Of a DNA stretch of 64,000 nt, positions 42,953-48,380 are shown in pieces (the stretch's first letter is position 1; the number at the start of each line of letters is the position of its first letter). A program made the position numbers and the translations under genes. Under the pieces are notes generated by a model. That model searched no databases, had not been told where the DNA came from, and saw only the letters and a program-made list of their open reading frames with translations. Location: the NCBI GenBank assembly GCA_009692185.1, contig SHZT01000002.1:221455-285454 (forward strand), written 5' to 3'. The DNA comes from Gemmatimonadota bacterium (GTDB lineage: Bacteria; Gemmatimonadota; Gemmatimonadetes; Gemmatimonadales; GWC2-71-9).

Positions 42953-45817
42953 TCAGGACGCGGAAGGGCGAAGAACCGCCTTGAGGAAGCGCCCGGTGTG
43001 GGAATTGCCCTCGAGAGCCACCTGCTCCGGCGTCCCTTCAGCCACCACGCGCCCGCCCGCGTCTCCGCCCTCGGGGCCGAGATCAATCACCCAGTCAGCC
43101 GTCTTCACCACGTCCAGGTTGTGCTCGATCACGACCACCGTGTTTCCCTTCTCCACCAAGCGGTGGAGCACGTCGAGCAGGAGGCGGACGTCCTCGAAGT
43201 GAAGACCCGTCGTGGGCTCGTCGAGTATGTAGAGCGTGCGCCCGGTGTCCCGCTTGGCCAGCTCGGTGGCGAGCTTCACCCGCTGGGCCTCACCGCCCGA
43301 TAGCGTCGTGGCGCTCTGGCCCAGGTGGATGTAGCCCAGGCCCACGTCGTTGAGCAGCTCGAGCTTGCCGCGAATCCGCGGCTGGTGCTCGAAAAAGTCG
43401 AGCGCGTCGGCGACCGTGAGGTCAAGCACATCCGCGATGGACTTCCCCTTGTACCGCACCTCGAGGGTTTCCCGATTGTACCGGCGTCCCTTGCAGACCT
43501 CGCAGGGTACGTACACGTCGGGAAGGAAATGCATTTCGATCTTCACGAGGCCGTCGCCCTGGCATGACTCGCAGCGGCCGCCCTTCACGTTGAACGAGAA
43601 CCTGCCGGGGCCGTAGCCACGGATCTTGGCTTCCGCGAGCTGGGCGTAAAGGTCTCGAATCGGGGCGAAGAGTCCCGTATACGTGGCGGGGTTGGACCTC
43701 GGCGTCCGGCCGATGGGACTCTGGTCCACGTCGATGACCTTGTCGATCTCATCCAGGCCTTCGATCCGCTCGTGGGCTCCGGCCACGGTACTAGCCCGGT
43801 AGAAATGCCGCGCCAGCGCGTGGTAGAGAATCTCGGTCACCAGGGAAGACTTGCCGGACCCCGATACGCCGGTCACCGCAATGAAGGCGCCCAGCGGGAA
43901 ATCCACGTCGACCTTCTTGAGGTTGTGGTGCCGGGCCCCGATGACCTTGAGGGCCCGCGACGGGTCCAGCGTCCGCCGGACCGACGGCAGGTTGATCCGG
44001 AGTTCCCGCCGCAGGTACCGGGCCGTCAGCGAGTCCGGGTGGGCCAGCACCTGTTTCAGGGTTCCCTGCACCACGACTTCGCCCCCGTGGCGGCCGGCCC
44101 TCGGTCCCAGGTCGATGATGTAATCCGCCGCCCGGATCGTCTCTTCATCGTGCTCCACGACAATCACGGTATTGCCCAGGTCGCGGAGTCCCTGGAGGGT
44201 GGCGAGGAGCCGGGCGTTATCCCGCGGGTGGAGGCCGATTGACGGTTCGTCGAGGATATAAAGGACTCCCACCAGCCGGCTGCCGATCTGGGTGGCGAGG
44301 CGAATGCGCTGGGCCTCGCCGCCGGACAGGGAGGCTGCCGCCCGGCCCAGGGTCAGGTAGTCCAGTCCGACATCGTCAAGGAACCGGAGCCGTTCGCATA
44401 CTTCTTTAAGGATGGGTCCGGCAATATCGGGATCCACGCCGGCCTTGCCGGCTCCCCGCACCGGGATTCGCTCGAAAAACAGCCGAGCCGCCGAAACCGG
44501 CATTTCGACGATTTCCCCAACACTCTTTCCGGCGACCAGGACGCTCAAGCTCTCCGGCTTGAGGCGCCGGCCGCCACAGGTGTCGCAGGGGAGCGAGGTC
44601 ATGTATTCCTCGAGCTGGGCGCGCACCGACTCCGAGGTGGATTCCCGGTACCGTCGCTCCACATTCTTGAGGATGCCCTCCCAGCCGGACTCGTAGCGCC
44701 CGGCTGCCTTCCCGGCTCCGTACTGGAATGTGAGCGTTCGCTCAGATGCCCCATTGAGCAGTATTGCCCTGACCTTGGCCGGGATAGCGCCCCAAGGTTG
44801 AGCGGGGTCAAACTTGAATGCGCGGGCCAGGGTGGGAATGACAACCGTTGCGAGATAGCCGCTGGGTTCACCCCATGGCAGGACGACCCCTTCGAGCATT
44901 GAGATGCTCGGATCCCCGAGGATCAGGCTCGCACTGACTTCGCGGCGGGTGCCCAGACCGCCACAGGCTGGGCACGCACCGTAGGGCGAGTTGAAGGAGA
45001 ACTGGCGGGGTTCAAGTTCGGCGAGGGAGTACTCGCATTGTGAACACGCGAACCGTTCCGAGAACAGGATCGTCTGACCCGTCTCGGTCCTAGGCCCCTC
45101 GTATCGAACGACCTCAACCAAGCCCTCGGCAGCACGGAGCGCTGTCTCGATGGAGTCGTGAAGCCGGCTCCTGTCCTCTGATCTAGTGGTCAGCCGGTCC
45201 ACAATCAGGGCTATGTCGTGCTGCAGCCGTCGGTTCAGCCGGGGCGGGTCGGTCAGATCGTAAGTCGTTCCATCCACCCGAACACGGACAAACCCCTGCT
45301 TGCGCGCTCCCTCGAACAGGTCCTTGAACTCCCCCTTCCGTCCACGGACCAGGGGAGCGGCGATCTCGACCCGGGTCCCGGTTGGCCAGCCCAGGAGGGT
45401 GTCGGTTATCTGGGAGGCGCTCTGCCGGGCGATAGGCGACCCGTCATTGGGGCAATGGGGGATGCCTACCCGGGCCCAAAGGAGCCGGAGGTAGTCGTAG
45501 ACCTCGGTGACCGTCCCGACCGTTGACCGGGGATTGTGGCCGGCGGTCTTCTGCTCGATGGAGATAGCCGGGGAGAGCCCCTCGATGGACTCGACATCCG
45601 GCTTTTCCATGAGGCCCAGGAATTGCCGGGCATAGGCAGAGAGGGACTCGACGTATCGTCGCTGGCCTTCCGCGTAGATAGTGTCGAACGCCAGGGACGA
45701 CTTTCCCGACCCGGACAGGCCGGTAATGACCGTCAGGCGGTCACGGGGGATCTCGACCGTGACGTTCTTCAGGTTGTGGACGCGGGCACCGCGGACAATC
45801 AGGCGATCTTCAGCCAT
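42953..45817 (-). CDS. uvrA: Excinuclease ABC subunit A
   Basis: 954 aa. DNA damage recognition in nucleotide excision repair. Walker A of the first ATPase is GLSGSGKSS (33-41); the second, GVSGSGKSS, is near residue 650. Zinc-binding CxxC pairs: CSQC...CPAC, CDTCGG and CESCQG...CEVCKG. ABC signatures [12 protein letters not shown] and [12 protein letters not shown] are present. The closely spaced promoter leaves almost no leader. uvrB is not in the window. Confidence 0.98.
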
Positions 45818-45952: not shown

Positions 45953-46294
45953 GTGGCAGCTCGAGAAGACAGTCCCTACATCGTGGTGCTCACGACCCTG
46001 GGGAACGCAGAAGATGCGCATGCCTTCGTTCGAGCGCTGGTAGATCGGCGGCTGGTGGCCTGCGGAACGATCGTGCCGGGTGCGCGTTCGATTTACCGCT
46101 GGAAAGGAAAGATCGCCGACGAGCACGAAGCGGTCGTGCTGCTGAAGACCCAACGGGATCGCTGGCCTGATCTGGTAGACGCCGTACGAACACTGCATCC
46201 GTACAAGGTACCGGAACTCCTGGCGCTCCCGGTGAGCGAGGGTCTGCCGGCGTATCTCGACTGGGTCACGAGCGAAACCATCTCGAAGGAATAG
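45953..46294 (+). CDS. cutA: Divalent-cation tolerance protein CutA
   Basis: 113 aa from GTG. The trimeric CutA1 fold signatures are present: LTTLGNAEDAHAFVRALVDRRLVACGTIVPGARSIYRWKGKI, EAVVLLKT and HPYKVPELLALPV. The usual length is 105-115. The exact function (copper tolerance, signalling-like) is unsettled for the family. It heads a plus-strand group of four genes. Confidence 0.95.
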   Translation: MAAREDSPYIVVLTTLGNAEDAHAFVRALVDRRLVACGTIVPGARSIYRWKGKIADEHEAVVLLKTQRDRWPDLVDAVRTLHPYKVPELLALPVSEGLPAYLDWVTSETISKE

Positions 46295-46304
46295 GCAGAA
46301 GGTC

Positions 46305-46640
46305 ATGAGTCATTTTGGGCGGCACGGGCGGCGGGCGCGGCGGCGGTTCGGAACGGAACTCGCGGGGCGCCTCGCAGCGCTACACGCGGAAAAACCTGAT
46401 GGCAACGGCGGAATCACCATGAATGGCAGCGCAGCGACCAACGGTCACGGGGCGGCGAACGGCAATGGCGCCAACGGCCACGCCGTGAACGGCAACGGAG
46501 CCCCGGCGACCAACGGCATCGCGCTGGTCACGCCGGCAATTCACGCCAGGGTCCTTCCGTTTGAGATCTCCAGCGACGAAACGGCCCTCGAAACAGCCCC
46601 CTGCGACGTCTGCGGCCGTCAGCATGGCCCTGCGAGGTGA
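46305..46640 (+). CDS. Small basic/NG-rich protein ending in CDVCGRQHG
   Basis: 111 aa. Arg-rich N-terminus (GRHGRRARRRFGTELAGRLAALH), then an Asn/Gly/Ala low-complexity stretch (ATNGHGAANGNGANGHAVNG), then LPFEISSDETALETAPCDVCGRQHGPAR. The CxxC-x3-H pattern may bind metal. AAGG sits close before the ATG. I do not recognise a family. Its 3' end lies within a 207-bp duplication and overlaps the next gene by 17 nt, so its original C-terminus is preserved only in this first copy. Confidence 0.55.
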   Translation: MSHFGRHGRRARRRFGTELAGRLAALHAEKPDGNGGITMNGSAATNGHGAANGNGANGHAVNGNGAPATNGIALVTPAIHARVLPFEISSDETALETAPCDVCGRQHGPAR

Positions 46641-46988
46641 CACGCCCGCCGTGGCGGCGGGCGATCCCGTTTCTTCCCCGGCTCCGGCGGCCACGAGCAC
46701 CCCCATGGAGATGAGCGCGGCGCCGGCCCCGGTGGAACCGTCGGCCGACGAAGTCCTGTTCCGCGCAGCGCGCGAGGCAAAGACGAAACGGCCCTCGAAA
46801 CAGCCCCCTGCGACGTCTGCGGCCGTCAGCATGGCCCTGCGAGGTGACACGCCCGCCGGGGCGGCGGGCGATCCCGTTTCTTCCCCGGCTCCGGCGGCCA
46901 CGAGCACCCCCATGGAGATGAGCGCGGCGCCGGCCCCGGTGGAACCGTCGGCCGACGAAGTCCTGTTCCGCGCAGCGCGCGAGGCAAA
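46575..46988 (+). repeat. 207-bp direct tandem duplication
   Basis: Copies 46575-46781 and 46782-46988 differ at one base only (T at 46652, G at 46859). 207 is 69 codons, so the frame of the TPR gene is kept and gains 69 residues. The near-identity points to a very recent event. Confidence 0.95.
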
Positions 46989-47565
46989 CGCGAACGGCGA
47001 CCTGCGCCGCGGGATGGCGATCTACCGGGAACTCCTCTCGCTGAACCCGCGTCACGTCCGCGCGCGCAACAACCTCGCGCTGTTGCTTGAACAGCAGGGC
47101 GGGCACGACGGGGCGCTCGAACAGCTCAACCAGTGCCTCACGATGGAGCCCGGCAATCCGCAGGTGCTGGTGAACCGCGGCGCCGTGCTGGGGTCCCTGG
47201 CCCGCTACACCGAGGCTGACCGCGACTTGCGGATCGTCCTGCAGACGGAGCCGGACAACGCGGAGGCGCATTTCAACCTCGGGCTGGTGATTTCGCGCAA
47301 GGGATTGTGGAACCAGGCTATTCCGCACCTGCGCCGCGCAATCGAGCTGGAACCCAGCCGCGCCATGGCCTACTACTACCTCGGCGAGGCGCTGAACAAG
47401 GTCGATGACCTGAACGGAGCCCTCCAGGCGTTCCAGCGGGCCTCCGAGTTGCACCCGAGCAGCGCGAAGGTGTTGTGCGGCCTCGGCATCGTGTACGACC
47501 GGATGAACCGGCCCGAAGAGGCCGCGCAGATGTACCGCCGCTCCCGGGACGTCACCGGCCGGTGA
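46624..47565 (+). CDS. TPR-repeat protein with duplicated N-terminal region
   Basis: 313 aa from ATG 46624 (another ATG at 46831 in the second copy would give the pre-duplication protein of 244 aa; a TTG at 46561 is less likely). The N-terminal about 120 residues are Ala/Pro/Ser-rich and contain the repeated MALRGDTPA...DEVLFRAAREA unit twice. From about residue 121 there are about six tetratricopeptide repeats (GMAIYRELLSLNPRHVRARNNLALLLEQQG, LNQCLTMEPGNPQVLVNRGAVLGSLARY, and so on). TPRs mediate protein contacts; partner unknown. The next gene starts at the stop (GTGA). Confidence 0.85.
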   Translation: MALRGDTPAVAAGDPVSSPAPAATSTPMEMSAAPAPVEPSADEVLFRAAREAKTKRPSKQPPATSAAVSMALRGDTPAGAAGDPVSSPAPAATSTPMEMSAAPAPVEPSADEVLFRAAREANANGDLRRGMAIYRELLSLNPRHVRARNNLALLLEQQGGHDGALEQLNQCLTMEPGNPQVLVNRGAVLGSLARYTEADRDLRIVLQTEPDNAEAHFNLGLVISRKGLWNQAIPHLRRAIELEPSRAMAYYYLGEALNKVDDLNGALQAFQRASELHPSSAKVLCGLGIVYDRMNRPEEAAQMYRRSRDVTGR

Positions 47566-48380
47566 TCTACGTCGTCGTGGACGACATCGCGTTCGTGACA
47601 GCGGACGCGGTGGTTCGTCCCGCGACCACCTCGCTCGAGCCCACGACCGCCGCCCTGCGCCACCTGGAGCAGGTCGGCGGTCCTTCTTTTTTGAAACAGA
47701 TCCAGGTCAACCAGGATCTCGCCGTGGGAGCCGCGGTCGTGACGGGCGGCGGCGACCTCCCTGCTCCCTTCGTCATCCACGCTATCATTGTCACCCTGGT
47801 GTCGTTCCTCAACCTGGGACTCGCGGGGTTCGTGCTCTCCTCTATCGTGGCAAGGTTCATTTTCCCGGCGGTTTCACTCGAGGGACGGCAAATGTGGCTG
47901 CTGCGGTCGTCGCCGCTGGATCTGAAGGCGTTGCTGTGGTCCAAGTACTGGGTGGGCACGGTGCCCCTGCTGATCCTGGCGCTGATCATCATCATGTTCA
48001 CCAACGTCCTGCTGAGGGCGTCGCCATTCATGATGATCGTGAGCGTGGGGACCATCACCATGCTCACGATGGCCATCAGCGCGATGGCGCTCGCGTTTGG
48101 GGCATTGTACCCGCAATTCGAGACGGAGAACGCGGCGCAGATTCCAACGTCGTTCGGCGGCTTGATCTACATGATGTCCACGATCGCGCTGCTGGCGGTG
48201 GTGATCGTCATCGAGGCACAGCCGGTGTCCGTTTACCTCGCGGCCGAGTTCCAGGCGGACGCCGTGAGCATCACGCCGACCATGATCCTGGCCTTCATTG
48301 CGGTCATCGTGGTGTGCGCGACGGCGACGGTGGTGCCGCTCCGGATGGGACTGAAGAGAATGGAGCAGTTCGAGTTCTGA
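47562..48380 (+). CDS. Chimera: macro-domain-like N-terminus joined to C-terminal half of an ABC exporter
   Basis: 272 aa from a GTG overlapping the TPR stop. Residues 1 to about 70 read IYVVVDDIAFVTADAVVRPAT...LAVGAAVVTGGGDLPAPFVIHAI, the pattern of a macro (Appr-1''-p/ADP-ribose) domain up to the LPAxxVIH motif, where it stops short. From about residue 75 the sequence becomes a five-helix membrane protein (FLNLGLAGFVLSSIVARFIFPAVSLEGRQMWLLRSSPLDL), which matches the C-terminal half of roughly 550-aa ABC-exporter membrane proteins. The remaining macro fold and the first half of the exporter are missing. Most simply, an in-frame deletion fused two genes; a functional product is doubtful. Confidence 0.65.
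   Translation: MIYVVVDDIAFVTADAVVRPATTSLEPTTAALRHLEQVGGPSFLKQIQVNQDLAVGAAVVTGGGDLPAPFVIHAIIVTLVSFLNLGLAGFVLSSIVARFIFPAVSLEGRQMWLLRSSPLDLKALLWSKYWVGTVPLLILALIIIMFTNVLLRASPFMMIVSVGTITMLTMAISAMALAFGALYPQFETENAAQIPTSFGGLIYMMSTIALLAVVIVIEAQPVSVYLAAEFQADAVSITPTMILAFIAVIVVCATATVVPLRMGLKRMEQFEF

Follow-up and report, generated by a model that had tools for sequence, protein, structure and literature searches.

Macro domains (PF01661; ADP-ribose-binding, PRK00431 type) and the permeases of two-gene ABC exporters of the ABC_tran_2 family (PF16949, "Putative ATP-binding cassette") are the described systems closest to the reading frame at positions 47562-48380 of the window, the whole stretch of 64,000 nucleotides analysed here. 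With the macro domain, the frame shares the N-terminal 75 residues, at 63-79% identity to the intact macros of relatives, but its likeness stops at profile position 63 of 118, and exporter sequence replaces the C-terminal half. With the ABC_tran_2 permease, it shares the last 196 profile positions, at 73-77% identity to close relatives, but it lacks the first 346 of the 542 positions as well as a partner ATPase gene. A third comparison is with an ordinary mutation class, the in-frame deletion chimera formed within one operon, in which two partial genes are joined with short homology or none and the intervening genes are gone. The locus shows no difference in kind from such chimeras, its junction being known here from the assembly. 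Judged from its sequence, the chimera would be of this already known kind, an ordinary deletion scar, and present evidence points to no new architecture. A literature search on the locus found nothing.

The chimeric reading frame

The chimeric frame lies on the forward strand, encodes 272 residues followed by a stop codon ending at 48380, and starts with a GTG at 47562 that shares bases with the stop codon of the upstream TPR gene (GTGA); the intact macro gene of the relative HRbin33 has the same start/stop overlap. Both Pfam domains fall within this one protein, as expected from a sequence-only reading that had described a macro/ABC exporter chimera in a single frame with neither parent complete, and they abut at residue 76 with no linker (residues across the junction: ...VIHAIIVTLVSF...). 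The same reading had correctly recognized the macro part, which measures 75 residues rather than about 70, and the C-terminal identity of the exporter part, which is not a half of the permease but its last ~35%. Promoter and terminator scans gave chance-level signals only.

The 5' remnant (47562-47786, forward strand) corresponds to residues 1-75 of about 167 and is 77-79% identical to the same residues of the intact macro genes of HRbin33 and of the congeneric genome G001. Its Pfam match is barely over the cut-off (PF01661, profile positions 15-63 of 118, E 4.8e-5, 23.7 bits), and the NCBIfam macro models likewise end at residue 75, at profile positions 76-86 of 164-180; by comparison, the intact HRbin33 macro covers PF01661 positions 17-118. 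The GxGxG-like conserved stretch of the relatives' intact macros lies in the C-terminal half and is thus absent from the chimera. AlphaFold2, run on the fusion, gave low pLDDT values of 33-66 for the macro part; an intact macro control at similar alignment depth (6 sequences) did no better, with a mean of 49.6, and the low values are not taken as a sign of a misfolded macro half.

The 3' remnant (47787-48377, forward strand) comprises the last 197 of about 566 residues of the permease and matches PF16949 at profile positions 347-542 of 542 (E 2.9e-44), where the G001 permease covers 9-542. Its identity to the final 196-197 residues of intact permeases is 77%, and by hydropathy count it retains 5 of 11 predicted transmembrane segments. 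Among the 163 residues invariant in the permeases of 15 relatives, 59 belong to the retained region and 104 to the region lost. The partner ABC ATPase gene that lies directly upstream of such permeases is absent at the locus, so the permease remnant should export nothing.

The operon in relatives and its apparent loss here

In Gemmatimonadales, the locus has the order uvrA (reverse strand), cutA, TPR, macro, transglutaminase-like, ABC ATPase and ABC_tran_2 permease, with a ccsA-like gene, glpK and mtnA downstream of the permease in several genomes. In relatives, the macro protein has 167 aa, the transglutaminase-like protein 507 aa, the ABC ATPase 270 aa and the permease 566 aa (G001). Intact macro and exporter genes are thus found beside the TPR gene in relatives, in the same order as the two remnants, and the stretch between them is missing here. 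The distance between the two positions joined in the window ranges from 3481 to 5051 bp, with a median of 3682 bp, over the 46 loci in which both edges lie on one contig. As this stretch of about 3.7 kb is present between the parents in dozens of relatives, the window most likely holds either an ordinary deletion scar or an assembly gap, and not a new kind of protein.

The fused architecture was found in none of the 79 homologous loci, where no match starting before query residue 64 crosses the junction. When a 108-residue query spanning the junction was compared with 288 genomes of the order, full coverage was obtained, among the matches listed, only in the window's own genome and in none of the 287 others; the runner-up extends over query residues 50-108 only. 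A homologue carrying the fusion would be expected at the head of the match list, whose weak end therefore matters little for this absence.

The genes missing from the locus are also missing from the rest of the genome assembly, a draft of 2.63 Mb in 30 contigs with an estimated completeness of 99.94%. The transglutaminase-like gene, matched in 198 of the 288 genomes of the order, G001 included, has no match there at E <= 1e-10. The single ABC_tran_2 match is the chimera fragment itself (profile 347-542), and the best ABC ATPases reach 37-40% identity to the G001 protein. On these grounds, with no second copies found in the assembly, a move of the missing genes to another place in the genome was rejected.

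The comparison brings to light an operon that is conserved in Gemmatimonadales and has been little described (TPR, divergent macro, transglutaminase-like, ABC ATPase and ABC_tran_2 permease), seen in HRbin33 (BEIJ01000001.1; locus L021:3490-8896) and other relatives and apparently lost here; the relatives are mostly MAGs, and those named are Gemmatimonadota MAGs. The regular association of a macro-like protein with an ABC exporter could be worth a separate study. On contig C1 of another genome, G021, the macro and permease ends (L032 and L033) lie about 915 kb apart (468 kb vs 1384 kb), and the operon there thus seems split by rearrangement. In the assemblies of G001 (C88/C236) and G024 (C154/C83), contigs break between macro and permease, ending in or near the transglutaminase-like gene.

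Origin and fate of the join

The junction can be placed within a few base pairs, at 47787-47795 on the forward strand, from a blastn comparison with G001 and the edge sequences of relatives. With a 20-kb query, the left match to G001 ends at 47789 and the right match starts at 47796, nucleotide similarity extending to about 6 bp from the junction on both sides. The left edge tracks the macro gene, which in G001 reads GCTATCATT followed by ATG, whereas the window reads GCTATCATT followed by GTCACCCTG; the latter matches the permease codons preceding LVSFLNLG, and the right edge tracks those for V-T-L-V-S-F-L. At most about five bases are estimated to be common to both ends at the join. In the two relatives compared, the longest word found at both edges, over 100 bp to either side, measures 8-9 bp, and the joined positions have no long direct repeat around them. 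Such short edge homology fits an illegitimate deletion and not a collapse over a long repeat.

The reading that best accounts for these data, with a probability of roughly two in three, is that a recent, natural illegitimate deletion of about 3.7 kb within the conserved operon left a chance in-frame chimera, known here from the assembled sequence. Such a deletion had been offered by the sequence-only reading as one possibility, albeit at about 1.5-2 kb, a size that the relatives' loci do not support. It would have taken out the transglutaminase-like and ABC ATPase genes entirely, together with the last ~92 macro codons and the first ~370 permease codons, and the ends would have been joined with little or no homology by recombination of the microhomology or end-joining type. 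By chance, with odds of one in three, the join preserves the reading frame, and the open frame thus survives. Its product would probably be a non-functional or degraded membrane protein, with loss of the exporter function; a non-functional chimera is the most likely outcome.

The main rival, also raised by the sequence-only reading, is an assembly artefact, in which the 3.7 kb exists in the organism and was dropped during contig building by a collapsed or chimeric read join; the chimera would then have no counterpart in nature. The draft state of the genome, together with the predominance of MAGs among its relatives, speaks for it, and the breaks at the same place in the G001 and G024 assemblies suggest that the stretch may be hard to assemble. 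On the other hand, the junction sits inside a 304-kb contig, the 8-9 bp edge words make a repeat-driven graph collapse unlikely, the missing genes are on no other contig, and the neighbouring genes look complete across 36.8-54.1 kb of the window. On balance, an artefact is possible but rather unlikely.

The state of the remnants bears on the age of the join. Of the columns with a conservation of 90% or more, 22 fall in the macro remnant and 67 in the permease remnant; the window departs from none of the former and from one of the latter, which does not exceed what is seen in other sequences, and the codon-position divergence of the remnants resembles that of neighbouring genes. Relative-rate counts for the permease remnant gave 18-23 window-specific changes vs 10-15 with three of four outgroups and 17 vs 14 with the fourth, a slight, non-decisive excess. 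With conserved residues intact and no visible decay, the event is either recent or exists only in the assembly.

A protein that is still selected would likewise show an open frame and well-preserved residues; it could, for instance, be a membrane-anchored half macro domain binding ADP-ribose-like ligands or regulating another transporter. The frame has indeed stayed open for 272 codons, with the start-stop coupling to the TPR gene retained. Such a selected fusion is nonetheless very improbable given the losses on both sides, which include the macro C-terminal half with its GxGxG-like stretch, the ATPase gene and 104 of the 163 residues invariant in the permease, and given that no homologue shares the architecture. 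Moreover, even the relatives' intact macros are without the Asn-rich catalytic motif usual in macro domains. The same losses speak against the new membrane-tethered ADP-ribose-binding architecture offered earlier as an alternative to deletion, and an ADP-ribose sensor of this sort is unlikely. Least credible of all is expression of the fused frame as a half-macro membrane protein kept by selection for a regulatory role unlike that of either parent. The locus is of note chiefly as a warning that automatic annotation could place the frame in databases as a macro/transporter fusion.

The upstream neighbourhood

Upstream of the chimera, synteny with relatives is anchored by a uvrA-type gene at 42953-45817 on the reverse strand (72-86% identity and synteny with the relatives' homologues), and by cutA (45953-46294, forward strand; PF03091), also syntenic. 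The TPR-repeat gene (46561-47565, forward strand; Pfam TPR), syntenic in relatives and immediately upstream of the chimera, is a retained part of the damaged operon. Its 5' part carries a 207-bp tandem duplication (46575-46988, forward strand) of two copies; the unit corresponds to 69 codons of an Ala/Pro-rich part of the gene, and the copies differ by one T/G mismatch. The junction was earlier said to sit right after this recent duplication; in fact, the duplication ends about 800 bp before it.

In G001 and HRbin33, a single frame encodes both the TPR part of the protein and the N-terminal stretch preceding it; in the window, this N-terminal stretch (46305-46640, MSHFG...LPFEISSDE) is out of frame with the TPR part. 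As the frame change is located within the duplicated unit or ahead of it, it seems to predate the duplication. Several oddities, the duplication and the frame change within 1.5 kb upstream among them, are gathered in one small region, which counts in favour of an assembly error; the two fit relaxed selection on a damaged operon equally well.
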